Origin: Luteibacter aegosomatis
GTDB taxonomy: Bacteria; Pseudomonadota; Gammaproteobacteria; Xanthomonadales; Rhodanobacteraceae
Direction: 5' to 3'
Length of the DNA: 64,000 bases
Assembly: GCF_023078455.1 (NCBI RefSeq)
Contig: NZ_CP095740.1
Coordinates: forward strand, 2,034,001 to 2,098,000
The notes below the pieces were generated by a model. The model worked only from the letters and a program-made list of their open reading frames with translations, searched no databases and was not told the origin of the DNA. The number at the start of each line of letters is the position of its first letter. The first letter of the stretch is position 1. The position numbers and the translations under genes are program-made. Positions 39,835 to 61,667 of the stretch are shown in pieces.

Positions 39835-39873
39835 ATCGCTCAAGCTGAAGCCCTGGCATCACTGCTTCGTCGG

Positions 39874-40470
39874 TTCGCCGATGCGATCGGCTCCCACCCC
39901 TCCGGTAGGAGCGTCCTGCGGTGCTCCGTCCAGGAATCGTGCGGAGCGGAAGGCGCGGCGTCGCCGCTTCGTTGGCTTTCGCCGATGCGATCGGCTCCCA
40001 CCCCTCCGGTAGGAGCGTCCTGCGGTGCTCCGTCCAGGAATCGTGCGGAGCGGAAGGCCCGGCGTCATTGCTTCGTTGGCTTTCGCCGATGCGATCGGCT
40101 CCCACCCCTCCGGTAGGAGCGTCCTGCGGTGCTCCGTCCAGGAATCGTGCGGAGCGGAAGGCCCGGCGTCATTGCTTCGTTGGCTTTCGCCGATGCGATC
40201 GGCTCCCACCCCTCCGGTAGGAGCGTCCTGCGGTGCTCCGTCCAGGAATCGTGCGGAGCTGAAGGCGCGGCGTCGCCGCTTCGTTGGCTTTCGCCGATGC
40301 GATCGGCTCCCACCCCTCCGGTAGGAGCGTCCTGCGGTGCTCCGTCCAGGAATCGTGCGGAGCGGAAGGCCCGGCGTCATTGCTTCGTTGGCTATCGCCG
40401 ATGCGATCGGCTCCCACCCCTCCGTAGAAGCCTTGCTACCGAAGGGGTGGGAGCCGATCGTATCGGCGAT
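39874..40470. repeat. 104-bp tandem REP array downstream of lolA
   Basis: Left-type REP arms (TTCGCCGATGCGATCGG...) start at 39874, 39978, 40082, 40186, 40290 and 40394, exactly 104 bp apart. Units also hold TAGGAGCGTCCTGCGGTGCT and a GAAGGCCCGGCGTCATTGCT-like segment that matches the sequence just after lolA. Only the last copy is closed by a right arm. The array fills the gap up to the next gene, and no other feature is seen. Confidence 0.93.
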
Positions 40471-40532
40471 AGCTACGAAGCGATTTCATGCCAGACTGCG
40501 CCCGACATCGGACGTGGTCGAGGGACAAAGGC

Positions 40533-43205
40533 ATGTACGTTCTCTTCGGAATCATCGGCGCGATCGTCGGCGCCTTCGTGGGGCAGGGTGTTGCAGGGGG
40601 TGTGGCCGGATTTGCCATCGGCGTGCTTTGGGCGCGCACCTCGCTGCTGCGCAACGATCTCGACGAAGCCCTGCGCCGCCTCGGTGAAAAACCGGCACCC
40701 GCGCCGATCCAGGAGCGACTCGACGAGCAGCCCGTCACGCCGGTTGCCTGGCCCGACAACCCGGCGCCCGCACCTCGGCCCATCGTCCCCCCACCGATGC
40801 CGGTCGCCGAGCCCTTAGCCGCCTACGCCCCTCCTCCGGCACCCGAGCCGTCCGTACCGGCCGGCCCCAGCGTCGGCGATCGCATCGCCACGGCGATCAA
40901 ACGCTGGTTCACCGAAGGCAACGTGCCGGTCAAGGTCGGCATGCTGGTGCTGTTCGCCGGCGTGGCCGCCTTCCTCAAATACGCCACCGACGCCGGCCTG
41001 CTGCGCATCCCCCTTCCCGTGCGCCTCATGCTCGTGGCCTTGCTCGCCATCGCCGGCGTCGCCTTCGGCTGGATCCAGCGCGACAAGCGCCGTGCCTTCG
41101 CCCTCTCGCTGCAGGGCGGTTCCATCGGCGTGCTGGTGATGACGGTGTTCGCCGCCTATCGCCTGTACGCGCTCATCGATTCGCTACCCGCGTTCGTGCT
41201 GCTGGTGATCTTCGTGGGCGGCCTCGGCGTGCTCGCCGTGCTGCAGGACGCGCTCGCGTTGGCCGTGCTCGGCCTGGTGGCCGGTTTCGCCGCGCCGATC
41301 ATCGCGTCGAGCGGGCAGGGCAGCCACGTGGTCTTGTTCACCTACTACGCCGTGCTCAACCTCGGCATCCTCGGCATCGCGTGGAAGAAGGCCTGGCGCG
41401 TGCTCAACGTGCTCGGCTTCGTCGCCACCTTCGGCGTGGGCACCGCATGGGGCGTGCTGCGCTATTCGCCCGGGTTGTTCGCCAGCACCGAGCCCTTCCT
41501 CGTGCTGCATTTCCTGCTCTATCTCGCCGTGCCCTGGCTGCACGTGCTGCGCTCGCCCGACCAGCGCAAGGCGATCCTCGACGGCTGCCTGATGTTCGGC
41601 AATCCCATCGCCTGCCTCATCCTGCAAGCGGCCTTGCTCGACTGGCAACCGATGCCGCTGGCGATCTCCGCCATCGTCGCCGCGGCCCTCTATGTAGGCA
41701 TCGCGTTCGCCGTCCGGCATCGCGACGACATGCGCCTGTTGCGCGACACCTGGGCCGTGCTCGCCGTCGCGTTCGCGACGGTGGCCGTGCCGTTGGCGCT
41801 GAGCGCGAGCGCCACCGCCGCGGTGTTCGCCCTGGAAGGCGCGGGGCTCATCTGGCTCGGTTTCCGCCAGTCGCGTCCGTTGCCACGCTGGACCGGCGTG
41901 CTGTTGCAGGTGGTGGCCGCCGCCGCTTGGTCGATGGCCGTGATGTTCGACAACCAGCACGATGCCTGGCCGCTCATCAACGGCCATTTCCTCGGCGCCG
42001 TATTGATCGTGGCGGGCGCCGCCGTCGGCGCATGGCAGTTCGACCACCATGGCCGCTCGCAAGGCATGTCGAGCCTCGCCCGCGTGGGTCTGGCGTTGTG
42101 GGCGCTGGCCTGGTGGGGCATCGGCGTGGGTCGCGAGATCGACATCCACGCTGACGGCGCCGCCGCCATCGCGGCATGGATCGCCCTGATCGGCGTCACG
42201 GCGTGGCCCGTGGCCGAAGCCGGCCGCCGCGCGCGCAAGCTCGATCTCGGCGCGATCCTGGCCTTCATCGTGCCCGCCCTGTTCCTGCTCGGCATCGTGG
42301 TGCTTCAGGTGGCCGACTCGCGGAACACGCAGCCACTCGCTGGGTATCCGCTGCTGGCCGTGGTCGCCACGGGCATCGCGGGCTGGTTCGCGATGCGTGC
42401 GATTGTGCCGCACCCCGTTTCCGTGCTGATCGCGAACGTGCTCTGGTGGGCGCGCTGGCTCGCCCTGGCGGCCGTGGCCACCGACGTCGCCTTCGGCGCG
42501 GGCGTGCCGTCGGTGGGCGCGGCGTGGATCACCGCGCTGTTCGTCGCGCCGACCCTGCTGCTGACGGCCGCCAGCCTGTGGTGGCCGCGCCCGCTCGTAT
42601 CGCCCGTGCCGGCACCGGCGAAAACGCTTCGCCTCGCCCTGGGCACCCTCTTGCTCGCCGGTACGGTCGTCATCGGCATCGCCCTGCTGGGCACGGCGGC
42701 AAGCCCGCGTCCGTTGCCGTTCGTGCCCGTGCTCAATCCGATCGACCTGCTGCTGCTCGCCGTGGTGGTGCTGGTGTTCCGCGCGCTTTCCGACGCCGCG
42801 GTGCCCGCCGACATCCGTGTCGCGCGCCCGGTGGTGTTCGCCGTCTGCGTGTTCGCGGTGGCGACCAGCGCCACCCTGCGCTCCGTGCATCACCTGGGCG
42901 GCGTGCCCTGGGGCCCCGGCCTGATGGCATCGAGCCTCGCGCAGCTCTCGCTCACGGTGGTGTGGAGCGCCATCGGCGTGCTCGCCTGGGTGGTGGGTTC
43001 CCGGCGCGGCCTGCGCATGCTCTGGCTCGCCGGTGCCTGCATCATGGCCCTCGTGCTCGCGAAGCTGCTGCTCGTCGACCGCGGCCACCTGGGCAACCTG
43101 TTCGGTATCGGTTCGTTCATGGCCTACGGCTTGCTGTGCACCCTCGTCGGTTACCTCGCCCCGGCCCCGCCGCGGCAGCCATCGGAGTCGCCCCATGCAT
43201 CGTGA
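40533..43205 (+). CDS. DUF2339 polytopic membrane protein
   Basis: An 890-aa inner-membrane protein with over 20 hydrophobic helices. It starts with one TM (YVLFGIIGAIVGAFVGQ) and a Pro/Ala-rich cytosolic segment (residues about 55-125). The DUF2339 core begins KRWFTEGNVPVKVGMLVLFA. WIQRDKRRAFALSLQGGSIG and LAGACIMALVLAKLLLVDRG near the end are typical. Function unknown. The start MYVLFGII is preferred over an ATG 15 codons earlier that falls next to the REP array. It overlaps the DUF3999 gene by 11 bp. Confidence 0.87.
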   Translation: MYVLFGIIGAIVGAFVGQGVAGGVAGFAIGVLWARTSLLRNDLDEALRRLGEKPAPAPIQERLDEQPVTPVAWPDNPAPAPRPIVPPPMPVAEPLAAYAPPPAPEPSVPAGPSVGDRIATAIKRWFTEGNVPVKVGMLVLFAGVAAFLKYATDAGLLRIPLPVRLMLVALLAIAGVAFGWIQRDKRRAFALSLQGGSIGVLVMTVFAAYRLYALIDSLPAFVLLVIFVGGLGVLAVLQDALALAVLGLVAGFAAPIIASSGQGSHVVLFTYYAVLNLGILGIAWKKAWRVLNVLGFVATFGVGTAWGVLRYSPGLFASTEPFLVLHFLLYLAVPWLHVLRSPDQRKAILDGCLMFGNPIACLILQAALLDWQPMPLAISAIVAAALYVGIAFAVRHRDDMRLLRDTWAVLAVAFATVAVPLALSASATAAVFALEGAGLIWLGFRQSRPLPRWTGVLLQVVAAAAWSMAVMFDNQHDAWPLINGHFLGAVLIVAGAAVGAWQFDHHGRSQGMSSLARVGLALWALAWWGIGVGREIDIHADGAAAIAAWIALIGVTAWPVAEAGRRARKLDLGAILAFIVPALFLLGIVVLQVADSRNTQPLAGYPLLAVVATGIAGWFAMRAIVPHPVSVLIANVLWWARWLALAAVATDVAFGAGVPSVGAAWITALFVAPTLLLTAASLWWPRPLVSPVPAPAKTLRLALGTLLLAGTVVIGIALLGTAASPRPLPFVPVLNPIDLLLLAVVVLVFRALSDAAVPADIRVARPVVFAVCVFAVATSATLRSVHHLGGVPWGPGLMASSLAQLSLTVVWSAIGVLAWVVGSRRGLRMLWLAGACIMALVLAKLLLVDRGHLGNLFGIGSFMAYGLLCTLVGYLAPAPPRQPSESPHAS

Positions 43206-45938: not shown

Positions 45939-46440
45939 TTCGCCGATACGATCGGCTCCCACCCCTTCGGTAGCAGGGTCTTGGCAGCTCCGAAGGGGTG
46001 GAGAGCCCGTTCGGTAACAAGTCTCCGTGACCTGCCTACCAAAGGGGTGGGAGCCGATCGTATCGGCGAATCCTGACGAAGCCGCCCATTCCCCAACCAC
46101 CCACCGCCGTACAGGGATGGAGAGCCCGTTCGCTAGCAAAGTCTCCGTGATCTGCCTACCAAAGGGGTGGGAGCCGATCGTATCGGCGAACCCTGACGAA
46201 GCCGCCCATTCCCCAACCACCCACCGCCGTACAGGGATGGAGAGCCCGTTCGCTAGCAAAGTCTCCGTGACCTGCCTACCAAAGGGGTGGGAGCCGATCG
46301 TATCGGCGAATCCTGACGAAGCCGCCCATTCCCCAACCACCCACCGCCGTACAGGGATGGAGAGCCCGTTCGCTAGCAAAGTCTCCGTGACCTGCCTACC
46401 AAAGGGGTGGGAGCCGATCGTATCGGCGAACCCTGACGAA
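45939..46440. repeat. 120-bp tandem REP array downstream of rarA
   Basis: Right-type REP arms (CCAAAGGGGTGGGAGCCG...) recur with AAAGGGG at about 46041, 46161, 46281 and 46401, 120 bp apart. Units share GCCGCCCATTCCCCAACCAC and GGATGGAGAGCCCGTTCG. A left arm at 45939 opens the array. Because 120 is divisible by three, an open frame with a 40-residue period runs through it; I treat that as fortuitous. Confidence 0.92.
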
Positions 46441-46526
46441 GCACCTGCTTCCACCCTGCCGAAAGGCAGATACTCCACGCCCCGCCGCCGCCGTACGCTG
46501 TCCTCGAGCCCCACCGGGAGACGCCC

Positions 46527-47099
46527 ATGCGCATCGCCATCGCCACCCTCATCGGCGGTCTCGTCATGTTCCTCTGGGGCGCCGTCGCCCACATGGTGCT
46601 CCCACTGGGCGAACTCTCCATGCGAGCCCCCAAGAACGAAGACCAGGTGATCGCCGCCTTGCGCGACGGCCTGCCCGCCGAACACGGCATCTACGTGCTC
46701 CCGCACTTCGACACCGCGATGCATGCCGACAAGGCCGCCCTCGACGCCTTCTCCGCGAAAACCCGATCCCATCCCTACGCCTACATCGTCTACGCCCCCG
46801 AAGGCCGCGACGCCTTGGCGATGGGGCCGCAACTGCTCGGCCAATGGATCTCCGACACCCTCGCAGCTTTGTTGCTGGCCCTGGTGATGATCCGCGCCGG
46901 CGTCGGCGTGACGAAAGGCGTGATGCTGGGCCTGATGTTCGGCGTGTTCTCCTGGCTATCGCTCAGCGTGCCGTTCTGGAACTGGTACCGCTTCCCCACG
47001 GCCTTCACCTTCGGCTATCTGGTGGAGCAGGGCTTCGGTTGGATATTGGCCGGCGCGGCGATGGGGTGGTGGCTATCGCGCAAACGCAACGCGACCTGA
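46527..47099 (+). CDS. Hypothetical membrane protein (190 aa)
   Basis: Starts MRIAIATLIGGLVMFLWGAV, an N-terminal TM helix. A soluble segment of about 75 residues follows (NEDQVIAALRDGLPAEHGIY; YVLPHF; YAYIVYAPEG). Three more helices come after (ISDTLAALLLALVMIRAGV, GVMLGLMFGVFSWLSLSVPF, GYLVEQGFGWILAGAAMGWW). A GGGAG-type Shine-Dalgarno lies just upstream (CCGGGAGACGCCC). It resembles small four-TM proteins common in Xanthomonadales, with no known function. Confidence 0.75.
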   Translation: MRIAIATLIGGLVMFLWGAVAHMVLPLGELSMRAPKNEDQVIAALRDGLPAEHGIYVLPHFDTAMHADKAALDAFSAKTRSHPYAYIVYAPEGRDALAMGPQLLGQWISDTLAALLLALVMIRAGVGVTKGVMLGLMFGVFSWLSLSVPFWNWYRFPTAFTFGYLVEQGFGWILAGAAMGWWLSRKRNAT

Positions 47100-52275: not shown

Positions 52276-52365
52276 GGAGAGATGGCCGAGTGGTTTAAGG
52301 CAGCAGTCTTGAAAACTGCCGTAGGTGCAAGCCTACCGTGGGTTCGAATCCCACTCTCTCCGCCA
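52276..52365 (+). tRNA. tRNA-Ser (anticodon UGA)
   Basis: A 90-nt gene with encoded CCA. The acceptor stem GGAGAGA pairs with TCTCTCC, discriminator G. The D arm has GGCCGAGTGGTTTAAGGC, the anticodon stem CAGTCTTGAAAACTG with loop anticodon TGA, a long class II variable arm TAGGTGCAAGCCTA, and the T arm GTGGGTTCGAATCCCAC. It is a common integration site, and recombinase debris lies downstream. Confidence 0.97.
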
Positions 52366-54121: not shown

Positions 54122-54233
54122 AAATCATGAAACGCATCCGCAAAGCCAAGCATGACGGGCGCGTCGTTTGGAAAGCGCACTCGCGCAGGAAAACGGTCCC
54201 GGAATAAAATTCAGGTTTTTTTGGGGGGCGCGC

Positions 54234-54977
54234 ATGGCGCAGGGAAATCTGAAACCGAATAGAGATAAGGCCGAGGAAAAAGCCAAGGAGGTCATCAACC
54301 TTTTGGCTGGTGCTAAACGCTACCGCTCAAGGCTCAACCCAGTGGGTGCAGGCAAGAAAATTGTGCCTCTATTCCGCTGGTGCCTGCCGCCAGCGATTCT
54401 TTCTGCGATTGTCGCCACCTCACTCGAGATTTGGACTGGGCAGCCCCAGAAGCCGGCTGATGGTCCGGTCCTCTATTGGGCTGAGGAAATTCTTTCCATG
54501 GCCGCTCTGACACTCTCTTTCTTGGCGCTTGCCGTTGCTCTTTTCCTGTTGTGGTGGCGCAGGGAAGGGCTCACCGAGAACGAGGCCCATCACCTTCGAA
54601 CCGGCTACCTGCTCCACGAGCAGCAGGTCGAGGCCATCGCTGTCTACCCGCTGCCTGTGCTCCACAGTGTCAGTCGCTACTTTGAGCATCGGCACCTTTC
54701 AGGTATGGGTATCCACGTCAGCTTCATTGGTTGGAGCGGACTGACCCTGCCAACGGTTGCCTTGGTCGTCACGTCGGTCAAGCAGCTCTCCGACCTGCAT
54801 GCCTTTGGCGTCGGGAAAAACGGCGACCTTGTGTCTGTCGTATGGCTGGCAATCGGGCTTCTGGTCTTCATCAGCGTCATGATGCGCTGGTTCTCCAGAA
54901 AGGAGGAATACCAGCGCGGATTGCTCGCCGACGCCATTGCCATGGCGACAGAGAGAGAGTGCAAGGCGGCAGCCTGA
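54234..54977 (+). CDS. Orphan membrane protein (247 aa)
   Basis: Not recognised. It starts MAQGNLKPNRDKAEEKAKEV after GGGGGGCGCGC; an ATG 22 codons upstream is an alternative. The N-terminal 45 residues are charged and helical. TM helices are near FRWCLPPAILSAIVATSLEI, ILSMAALTLSFLALAVALFL, VSFIGWSGLTLPTVALVVTS and LVSVVWLAIGLLVFISVMM. Between them lies a soluble stretch with ENEAHHLRTGYLLHEQQVEA. The tail ends AMATERECKAAA. It sits between a broken regulator and a broken integrase, so it is probably cargo of the element. Confidence 0.6.
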   Translation: MAQGNLKPNRDKAEEKAKEVINLLAGAKRYRSRLNPVGAGKKIVPLFRWCLPPAILSAIVATSLEIWTGQPQKPADGPVLYWAEEILSMAALTLSFLALAVALFLLWWRREGLTENEAHHLRTGYLLHEQQVEAIAVYPLPVLHSVSRYFEHRHLSGMGIHVSFIGWSGLTLPTVALVVTSVKQLSDLHAFGVGKNGDLVSVVWLAIGLLVFISVMMRWFSRKEEYQRGLLADAIAMATERECKAAA

Positions 54978-59751: not shown

Positions 59752-60207
59752 ATGGCGGATGAAATGGATGAGGCAGACCGGTTGAAGCTGCGCCTTGAAC
59801 TCCACGCGGACTATGCCAAGGAGGCCAACGCGCGGGAGGCGGCGAGCAGCGACAACTACGACAAGGCCATCATGACGTATACGACGGGGGCCCTGGCCCT
59901 GTCGATCACCTTCATGTCGACCGTCCTGAAGGACACCACCCACGCAAAAGACATGGCGCATTTGAAGTTCGCATGGATCTTTTGGGTGGCCTCCCTGGTG
60001 TTTACGATCGTGTCGTTCCAGGTGTCGGTGAAAGCCCAACGGCGGGAAGCGGAAAAGGCCACGATCTACTACTTGGACGACAAGAAAGAGGCACTTTCAG
60101 CGTCGAACTGGTGGGCGTTTGCCTTGTTGGTGCTCAACCTCGCGGCGGGACTGCTGTTCGCGGCGGGGGCCGGGATGATGATGTGGTTCGTGTGGGTCAA
60201 TCTCTAA
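59752..60207 (+). CDS. Three-TM membrane protein, first gene of a proline-rich cassette
   Basis: A 151-aa protein starting MADEMDEADRLKLRLELHAD, with GGGAGA 8 bases upstream. The N-terminal 35 residues form a charged amphipathic helix. TM helices are at about 38-58 (AIMTYTTGALALSITFMSTV), 72-92 (FAWIFWVASLVFTIVSFQVS) and 118-150 (WWAFALLVLNLAAGLLFAAG to the end). Between TM2 and TM3 is a basic-acidic helix (KAQRREAEKATIYYLDDKKE). The SSDNYDKAIMTY stretch before TM1 resembles small orphan membrane proteins seen in accessory DNA. The layout recalls small membrane effectors of defence systems, which is only an analogy. Three tiny proline-rich genes follow in the same operon. Confidence 0.75.
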   Translation: MADEMDEADRLKLRLELHADYAKEANAREAASSDNYDKAIMTYTTGALALSITFMSTVLKDTTHAKDMAHLKFAWIFWVASLVFTIVSFQVSVKAQRREAEKATIYYLDDKKEALSASNWWAFALLVLNLAAGLLFAAGAGMMMWFVWVNL

Positions 60208-60220
60208 CGGAGAAATGGAT

Positions 60221-60400
60221 ATGACGTCGAACAATGGATCCAAGGGGATTCCGGGCTACGCCGAAGATGGCATGCCACCGGCCTTGATCGCGCAACTTCC
60301 GGAACGTCCCCGCAACATCCCACCGGCACGCATTACACCGGTTCCTCAGCCATCACCCGCGCCCGCTCCGGCACCGGCTCCCAGCCCTTCCAATAGGTGA
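60221..60400 (+). CDS. Tiny proline-rich protein A (PPARITPVP motif)
   Basis: A 59-aa protein starting MTSNNGSKGIPGYAEDGMPP. GGAG lies eight bases before this ATG; an ATG two codons upstream has only 2-nt spacing. The middle has ALIAQLPERPRNI, then PPARITPVP, then a tail PQPSPAPAPAPAPSPSNR. It has no cysteine, TM segment or signal peptide and is probably disordered. It starts 13 bases after the three-TM gene stop. The motif recurs in the next two genes. Function unknown; possible roles are ligand for a binding domain or RiPP-like precursor, neither shown. Confidence 0.7.
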   Translation: MTSNNGSKGIPGYAEDGMPPALIAQLPERPRNIPPARITPVPQPSPAPAPAPAPSPSNR

Positions 60401-60404
60401 CCTC

Positions 60405-60557
60405 GTGAACCCGTCTCAAATCCCTGGCTCAATGAATCGCGATACGTGGATGTCTCACAATCCTTCGGACAACCGTGGCATGCCGCCCGCGCGGATTGTG
60501 CCGGTCCCGCAGCCCAGTCCGGCGCCAGCGCCGGCACCAGTGCCCTCCAAGAAATGA
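60405..60557 (+). CDS. Tiny proline-rich protein B (PPARIVPVP motif)
   Basis: A 50-aa protein from a GTG four bases after the stop of gene A, with AGGTGA just upstream (overlapping that stop). It reads MNPSQIPGSMNRDTWMSHNP, then SDNRGMPPARIVPVP and a tail PQPSPAPAPAPVPSKK. The last 25 residues align with protein A, yet the codons differ (for example Pro CCG/CCC/CCA, Arg CGG against CGC, Ser AGT against TCA). A later ATG (MNRDTW) is an alternative start. Confidence 0.7.
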   Translation: MNPSQIPGSMNRDTWMSHNPSDNRGMPPARIVPVPQPSPAPAPAPVPSKK

Positions 60558-60585
60558 TCACGCACGTGCCTTTCGGAGCGTTTCG

Positions 60586-60714
60586 ATGAGCGACATGCCT
60601 CATGCTTTTGAATCTGATCGACCGGTGGAGCGATATACCCCGCCCGCGCGTATCGTGCCGGTTCCTGATCGATCGTCGGTGCCTTCACCCGCACCATCGC
60701 CGCCGAGGAAGTAG
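60586..60714 (+). CDS. Tiny proline-rich protein C (PPARIVPVP motif)
   Basis: A 42-aa protein starting MSDMPHAFESDRPVERYT with CGGAG seven bases upstream. It ends PPARIVPVPDRSSVPSPAPS plus PPRK. The nine-residue motif is identical to that of protein B, but the N-terminus is unrelated apart from charge. The gap after B is 28 bp. All three proteins keep the motif followed by a Pro/Ser/Ala tail and a terminal basic residue or two (NR, KK, RK). Confidence 0.7.
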   Translation: MSDMPHAFESDRPVERYTPPARIVPVPDRSSVPSPAPSPPRK

Positions 60715-60839: not shown

Positions 60840-61667
60840 TCAGTGGGATGGCGGCAATGCCGGGCACCGGGCGTCTTTCACGAGGGGTCCGAGCACCTCG
60901 ATGACGTCGGCTGCGACCATGCGCGAGGCGATGATCTTGCCGTCCCCGATGCGGGCAAGGAGCACGGACGTGCCCAATGGCCGGACCATGTGCCAGGCGA
61001 GCGGATCGCCCGGGATGCAGACAAGAGGATGGAGGCCGCCCGGCTCGCCCCGCAGCAGCCGCTGCGCATCGAGCGTGCCTTGCTGCCACGGAAAGAGCGT
61101 GATGACGCAGAGCACGAGGCTGATGGCAAGGGGAACCACGATGCGCCGACTCCGCAGATCACGCGGGCGGGTGGCAATGAGCAAGGTTGCCACCATCGCG
61201 ATGAGCAGGGAGACGCCGGCGAGTAGCACAACGTCGAGGACGCGTGTCATGTCAGCGGCCCATCCGGGGCTGAGGCTGCGGACGATGAGTGCGGTGAGCA
61301 CTGTGGCGAGAAGGGGCCAGAAGACGCTGCTGCGGACAACGCGCCGATGGGGCATCTGGAGGGTCACGGTTAGGCACAGGGCCAGGGCGCTCAGGGTCAT
61401 GCTGATGCCAAGCGCCCCCGTCCGCAGCATGGTCGTGTACGGCACATAGTCCATCGCCCACATTGACCCGATGGCCTCGAGGAAACCCTGCTTCTGATAG
61501 GCGCCGACGACAGTGGCAATCGCGGACGCGCCAATGAGGCTGCCGCCGATGATAGGCAGTGTCTTGAATGCCTTCCCGAGGATGTCGACCATCTCATCGT
61601 GGCTGCGAAGGGCGCGGTGGAGTGGGCGTCTGCGCCGTCCGGCGCGCGCGGTGGAGGGGTCCGTCAT
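60840..61667 (-). CDS. Hypothetical multi-pass membrane protein (275 aa)
   Basis: Not recognised. After a basic N-terminus (MTDPSTARAGRRRRPLHRAL) there are about six TM helices, for example LPIIGGSLIGASAIATVVGA, LGISMTLSALALCLTVTLQM, VVLLAGVSLLIAMVATLLIA and IVVPLAISLVLCVITLFPW. The C-terminal 75 residues are soluble (DAQRLLRGEPGGLHPLVCIP; LLARIGDGKIIASRMVAADV). It is convergent with the proline-rich cassette and divergent from Thoeris, so it belongs to neither operon by strand. A role as an independent cargo gene is likely. Confidence 0.65.
   Translation of the reverse strand: MTDPSTARAGRRRRPLHRALRSHDEMVDILGKAFKTLPIIGGSLIGASAIATVVGAYQKQGFLEAIGSMWAMDYVPYTTMLRTGALGISMTLSALALCLTVTLQMPHRRVVRSSVFWPLLATVLTALIVRSLSPGWAADMTRVLDVVLLAGVSLLIAMVATLLIATRPRDLRSRRIVVPLAISLVLCVITLFPWQQGTLDAQRLLRGEPGGLHPLVCIPGDPLAWHMVRPLGTSVLLARIGDGKIIASRMVAADVIEVLGPLVKDARCPALPPSH

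Follow-up and report, generated by a model that had tools for sequence, protein, structure and literature searches.

A three-helix membrane protein and its proline-rich peptides: a predicted two-part gene family in distantly related bacteria

Results

A membrane protein gene followed by three peptide genes

The cassette described here lies in a stretch of 64,000 nucleotides of Luteibacter aegosomatis DNA, called the window throughout, and consists of four open reading frames (ORFs), all on the forward strand (Table 1). Reading of these ORFs confirms the first-pass annotation in its description of a membrane protein gene followed by three tiny genes in tandem (P1, P2 and P3, of 59, 50 and 42 aa). 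The genes are separated by 13 bp (membrane gene and P1), 4 bp (P1 and P2) and 28 bp (P2 and P3). The stop codon of the membrane gene (TAA, 60205-60207) marks the end of the membrane domain and is placed immediately 5' of the P1 Shine-Dalgarno (SD) sequence, a GGAG which sits between this stop and the P1 ATG. Clear GGAG ribosome-binding sites are found for P1 and P3, while P2 has a GTG preceded by AGGTGA. The GTG start of P2 is favoured by two relatives that share its length of 50 aa, P0010 (78% identity, 100% of P2 alignable) and P0009 (87% identity, 62% of P2 covered).

Table 1. Features of the cassette in the window
Feature	Position	Strand	Basis
Three-helix membrane protein gene, 151 aa	59752..60207	+	ORF reading, relatives, AlphaFold
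Shine-Dalgarno GGAG of P1	60209..60212	+	anti-SD duplex -6.6 kcal/mol
Peptide gene P1, 59 aa	60221..60400	+	ORF, comparison with relatives
First motif of P1, GMPPALIAQLP	60269..60301	+	18.2 bits, 0/5000 shuffles as good
Second motif of P1, NIPPARITPVP	60314..60346	+	4.0 bits, second-best place in P1
Peptide gene P2, 50 aa, GTG start	60405..60557	+	ORF; relatives P0009, P0010
Motif of P2, GMPPARIVPVP	60477..60509	+	13.0 bits, 0/5000 shuffles
Shine-Dalgarno GGAG of P3	60575..60578	+	anti-SD duplex -6.3
Peptide gene P3, 42 aa	60586..60714	+	ORF
Motif of P3, YTPPARIVPVP	60634..60666	+	3.8 bits, 2/5000 shuffles

For the membrane protein, AlphaFold predicts three long helices (residues 7-58, 68-109 and 120-150; mean pLDDT 89.7). 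In a monomer model of a natural fusion, the motif region (172-201) has a pLDDT below 50 and is undocked. The density of Lys and Arg is 0.142 at the N-terminus, 0.160 in loop 2 and 0.048 in loop 1, which points to a predicted topology with the N-terminus and loop 2 inside and loop 1 outside. With three transmembrane helices, this model would place a fused tail outside and a free peptide in the cytosol; however, the stretch behind the third helix is also rich in Lys and Arg (0.168 in 14 fused rows), which makes this topology ambiguous.

The motif is constrained at the protein level and takes clade-specific forms

A motif profile of 11 positions, built from 37 hand-picked instances in other genomes with the window excluded, matches all three peptides, so that PPARI(V/T)PVP, previously noticed in P1, P2 and P3, is common to them beyond chance. 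The upstream copy in P1, GMPPALIAQLP, was absent from the earlier list. Synonymous codon differences between the copies are borne out as well: across 22 codons of P1 and P2 counted from PPARI, 7 are identical, 13 synonymous and 2 replaced. Pairwise NG86 estimates yield dN 0.15 and dS 2.16 for P1/P2 (20 codons), 0.13 and 1.71 for P1/P3 (9 codons), and 0 and 0.69 for P2/P3 (9 codons), on stretches that are short, partly saturated and picked for conservation. With dN well under dS in each comparison, the view that the protein sequence and not the DNA is constrained is upheld.

As the defining trait of the cassette, PPARI(V/T)PVP stands in part: it is real in the window, but it is a local form only. 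In the Rhodanobacteraceae-type loci, the motif can be aligned without gaps as Gxx[PS][AP]x[MI]xx[VLA]. Other repeated forms are SADIPxM-like (L067, L074, L075), GYxPP-like (L094-L099) or YTPPVNKLPPPPP (L023 and L029), and these clade-specific forms have a common register as judged by eye. The Rhodanobacteraceae profile finds no significant match in 10 of 11 peptides or tails from other clades (shuffles as good out of 5000: L067 611, L074 721, L096 157, L099 310, L026 1185, L042 1513, L029 3346, L036 4758, L041 1228, L044 526), L039 being the only clear match (20 of 5000). Since the profile fails to match most of these peptides significantly, a single motif for the whole family is at most suggested. 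More general, it appears, is a peptide that has its own start where the membrane domain ends and that often lies within the membrane gene.

Relatives are rare and scattered over several phyla

Homologues beyond the strain were found by both whole-genome and database searches. Relatives of the membrane protein occur in other proteobacteria, Thermodesulfobacteriota, Nitrospirota, Planctomycetota and Bacteroidota, and on virus contigs. At E <= 0.001, and with the window genome included, whole-genome searches detected it in 10 of 233 genomes at the family level, 7 of 369 at the class level and 13 of 398 at the phylum level, six of these 13 only at E 1e-4 or worse. Searches around two other centres gave 7 of 148 (4 below 1e-20) and 3 of 147 genomes (1 below 1e-20), and the class of the Geobacter genome that holds L029 gave 13 of 277 (10 below 1e-20), the centres being included each time. 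A scan of named genomes yielded 20 loci, with hosts among Luteibacter, Dyella, Rhodanobacter, Geobacter, Planctomycetota, Thermodesulfovibrionia, Spongiivirga, Aquimarina and Verrucomicrobia; four further loci lie on virus contigs (L034-L037). The locus in Luteibacter sp. UNCMF331Sha3.1 (L014) was also met in a genome of the same genus, G121. Protein database searches returned 8 and then 98 proteins, the second search scoring the best 7995 candidates by shared words. The distribution of the family is patchy and rare.

None of the database relatives (8, then 98) carries a precomputed Pfam domain. The four cassette proteins have no model above cut-off in the libraries searched and match no family of PADLOC-DB 2.0.0 at E <= 0.1, and PHROGs offers no model above cut-off for 30 family members. 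Thus, the initial impression that no described system has such a shape agrees with the libraries searched.

A start codon recurs at the end of the membrane domain

In many relatives, the membrane protein continues at its C-terminus into a Pro/Ala-rich tail that bears a motif of this kind. P1 is the counterpart of this fused tail, its GMPPALIAQLP matching GLPPPHIAQLP in P0004 and GVLPARIAQLP in P0005. In 30 of 40 distinct loci, a Pro/Ala/Lys-rich ORF starts at +6..+30 nt from the end of the membrane domain, 26 of the 30 starts having an anti-SD energy <= -4, compared to 340 of 6941 control windows from the same loci with such a start (4.9%) and 94 of 6941 with anti-SD <= -4; both the range and the composition rule were chosen once the data had been looked at. 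The 40 loci were defined by a membrane-domain profile match at E <= 1e-30, and 24 of them are also rows of the selecting profile. The start is located in frame within the membrane gene in 20 loci, out of frame in three, and behind a stop codon in seven, the window among these. In the three loci with an out-of-frame peptide overlapping the membrane gene (L032, L065 and L037), the predicted start is shown to serve the peptide and not the membrane protein. Extra peptide genes often lie downstream of the first.

By the rules of range and composition, the start is absent in 10 of the 40 loci. Three of these (L061, L025, L028) have an ATG at the expected place and a tail too poor in Pro, Ala and Lys, five (L022, L060, L029, L023, L019) have peptide ORFs farther downstream, one (L100) shows an SD-like GGAG with an ATG at +13 that the rule does not admit, and in L027 the scanned stretch is free of peptides. 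The first scan comprised 49 loci, from which those with E above 1e-30 were dropped (L030, L033, L069, L070, L071, L077, L078, L079, L104). Also left out were L024 and L101, which are truncated where their contigs end, L031, a near-copy of L019 disrupted by insertion-sequence-like genes (by eye), L072, L073, L102 and L103, and the weak matches L052-L057, L080, L083 and L084; repeat fetches of one place were counted once.

The same signal is seen at hand-marked junctions between membrane domain and tail. Of 20 fused genes entered, two from Bacteroidota, which have an ATG at the junction without an SD, were set aside; 15 of the remaining 18 have a start codon at the junction (14 ATG, 1 GTG). The mean anti-SD energy at the junction starts is -6.48, compared to -1.29 at 63 other internal Met codons (Mann-Whitney p 1.6e-8, for related genes that are not independent). 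The three genes without a junction start are L029, in which the SD is kept and GTC takes the place of the start, L012 and L023, which has another in-frame ATG with an SD of -8.8 just before its tail peptide. In the class of Geobacter sp. AOG1, six more fused genes have energies of -11.5, -11.0, -10.7, -7.1, -7.1 and -3.9. In most loci, comparison thus shows a predicted start codon of its own for the first peptide, usually with an SD. By eye, and from protein sequences only, the tails of P0028, P0032, P0037, P0038, P0043, P0045 and P0049 resemble out-of-frame readings of peptide genes, which suggests more overlapping arrangements in Geobacter-type genomes.

The arrangement of the two parts shifts along the tree

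In a tree of 40 membrane domains, 34 of them labelled by arrangement, the arrangement changes at least 7 times, and branches with good support require no fewer than 4 changes of the fused, 4 of the separate and 2 of the overlapping state. The window protein is the sister of a fused Luteibacter protein (support 97/94); L066, L027, L037 and L032 sit on very long branches, and their placement is unsure. The groups of the tree (23, 8 and 3, plus 6 unlabelled) differ from those of the start scan (20, 7 and 3) because L061, L025 and L028 are labelled fused and L100 separate. As the arrangement shifts while the start and its SD usually stay, the peptide probably stems from a gene translated on its own, which usually sits inside the membrane gene. 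It seems, as judged from these sequences, that selection keeps the peptide start rather than the frame relation. That membrane gene and peptide start form a real, conserved pair is very probable.

The neighbourhood varies between loci

The window places the cassette between SIR2-HerA and Thoeris genes, as the first-pass annotation rightly had it: both SIR2-HerA and the Thoeris ThsA/ThsB profiles match strongly, and the region lies downstream of a tRNA-Ser (52276-52365). At other loci the cassette stands beside different genes. The neighbours of 28 loci were collected as 147 ORFs of >= 110 aa, up to three per side; these were picked by length and third-position GC, and some are therefore probably not genes. 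An all-against-all comparison of the 147 found a similar neighbour common to only two pairs of loci and no neighbour family in more than 2 of the 28, and any one PADLOC model matches at most 2 of these ORFs. The commonest Pfam family among them is phage integrase (4 of 147), and single matches include terminase, SLATT_4 and YaaC. A defence role is a lead only, given by the neighbourhood alone.

Some individual surroundings may be recorded. In Dyella japonica (L017:6464-7952), a CBASS-like pair of a SMODS synthetase (E 1e-40) and SLATT_4 (E 5e-56) directly precedes the cassette, whose membrane gene begins at the very next base after the SLATT stop. A PAAR-like ORF that looks like a toxin by eye (L065:6734-7786, reverse strand) follows the family member with an out-of-frame peptide in L065. 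The island in the window contains two membrane-protein-like ORFs with no family match above cut-off (60840-61667, reverse strand; 54168-54977, forward strand), and elsewhere in the window (46027-46650 and 39859-40818) lie multi-frame repeats, for example several copies of LPKGWEPIVSANPDEA, which look like intergenic repeat clusters.

Discussion

What can be said about the role of this cassette? Our comparison describes what is, as read from sequence, an undescribed two-part gene family in distantly related bacteria. Prediction and alignment together portray a module of a membrane protein with three long helices and one to several short, putatively disordered, proline-rich peptides with a linear motif. 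No third gene recurs beside it and the pair is kept together across phyla, which makes the membrane protein the likeliest partner of the peptides. Among the functions considered at first pass, regulation of the membrane protein is accordingly still the best guess, while secreted or modified peptides find no support.

A precedent is provided by the Rpn proteins (RpnL/RpnS), in which, according to PMC10327210, the full-length protein is toxic and is blocked by a C-terminal piece translated on its own, and which are there described as variable, horizontally moved and linked to phage defence. The cassette resembles Rpn in the small C-terminal product from an internal start, here predicted from start codon and SD only; both are present in frame in most fused relatives, the window itself being the split form. 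The likeness is one of layout, and the sequences are unrelated. Unlike Rpn, a PD-(D/E)XK nuclease whose C-terminal domain is folded and dimerises, the cassette has a membrane protein and a tail predicted to be disordered, and its peptides also occur as separate genes, out-of-frame genes and tandem copies. No PD-(D/E)XK nuclease domain was met in the window protein, which has three long membrane-type helices and no match to a nuclease family. A second product from an internal start is also reported in PMC10327210 for Cas11d, made from cas10d; the parallel product of the cassette is predicted from sequence, and, in contrast to Cas11d, a subunit of a nucleic-acid-binding complex, it belongs to a membrane system.

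On the Rpn precedent, and with the membrane protein as the likeliest partner, we tentatively propose a membrane effector that may be restrained by antitoxin-like peptides encoded within or next to its gene, a reading by analogy that is possible but far from assured. The free peptide would be translated from the junction start and would bind the membrane protein, probably an oligomer, keeping it inactive. A short-lived peptide could be lost upon phage shut-off, by proteolysis or through sequestration by a phage product, and the freed membrane protein would then damage the membrane and bring the infected cell to a halt. With their different N-termini, duplicated peptides could supply further triggers and still have the binding motif in common. 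Several observations speak against this reading: the tail is undocked in the monomer model of a fusion, the predicted topology would put fused tail and free peptide on opposite sides of the membrane, the motif varies between clades, and the start is absent by the rules in 10 of 40 loci and from the junction in 3 of 18 fused genes, with no SD in the two Bacteroidota genes.

Several alternatives have to be weighed against a restrained effector. The motif could bind a third, soluble protein of host or phage, with fused tails tethering this partner to the membrane and free peptides competing for it or delivering it, as in superinfection exclusion. Up to three motif copies in one fused tail (L074, by eye) recall multivalent binding elsewhere, the monomer model shows no docking of the tail on its own domain, and some copies lie on virus contigs; but as no third gene recurs beside the 28 loci, only a widespread host protein or a phage protein would be left as partner, and we consider this adaptor function rather unlikely. 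A small three-helix membrane protein with a nested second product is likewise reminiscent of pores or holins, and the peptides might time lesions made by it in the service of mobile elements and not of immunity. Virus contigs account for 4 of the 40 loci, ORFs resembling terminase or tail genes adjoin L014 and L035 (by eye), and the single terminase match among the neighbours would fit. However, a tblastn search of three members against 50,697 phage records gave no match, and no endolysin or spanin family is found among the best 25 of 126 neighbour Pfam families, leaving such a timing device decidedly unlikely.

Tandem small peptide genes adjoining a membrane protein could also encode a secreted peptide or bacteriocin with its immunity protein or exporter. 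This is very improbable: inspection by eye shows no signal peptide, the neighbours share no family for modification or export, and the fused forms are hard to square with secretion. Finally, the fused genes could be relics of separate genes joined by stop loss that have ceased to make or to need the free peptide. The GTC behind the strong SD of L029 and the lack of a junction start in L012 and L023 are in line with such decay, but 15 of the 18 fused genes, and distant clades too, have kept start and SD, and L023 has its alternative ATG ahead of the tail peptide; a relic is therefore an unlikely explanation.

Should the peptides indeed restrain it, toxic effectors under gene-within-gene control would include membrane proteins besides nucleases, and the control would be exerted by disordered motif peptides and not by folded antitoxins. 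In its most general form, which we regard as doubtful, the idea would be that of widespread, undescribed membrane immunity modules that are regulated by a disordered motif peptide at a frame-independent site, defined by its ribosome-binding site, within or right after the membrane gene. Only the start of the peptide would then be under selection, so that the frame relation would be free to change, and tandem copies would diversify their N-termini as interchangeable triggers. The unannotated two-gene family spans proteobacteria to Planctomycetota and Bacteroidota, and its peptides, being nested in another gene or shorter than 60 codons, would tend to escape standard gene calling.

Two families of small membrane proteins invite comparison. 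The SLATT effectors of CBASS and related systems are likewise small helical membrane proteins in defence islands, and a SLATT_4 gene is the upstream neighbour of the L017 cassette. No SLATT model is found among the four weak Pfam matches of the window protein at E <= 0.5, nor among the best 25 of 54 Pfam families matched by 30 members; a distant kinship of fold may exist, and we know of no nested peptide in SLATT. The other family is 8xMP (PF24838), with which L026, the best relative seen, aligns almost end to end (E 6e-5; 23.3 bits against a cut-off of 30). The 8xMP profile has no match on the window protein and 0 matches in its genome, a rough profile comparison of the family with 11 8xMP ORFs gave a probability of 1.8%, and in the 16 of 18 8xMP loci that were inspected, no small ORF with the cassette motif was seen by eye behind the 8xMP gene. 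At L110, L111 and L114, the 8xMP genes adjoin ORFs that are TIR-like by eye (ISYSHDS, LSYRSRDE and ISHSWS near the start), which suggests a pairing of TIR with 8xMP.
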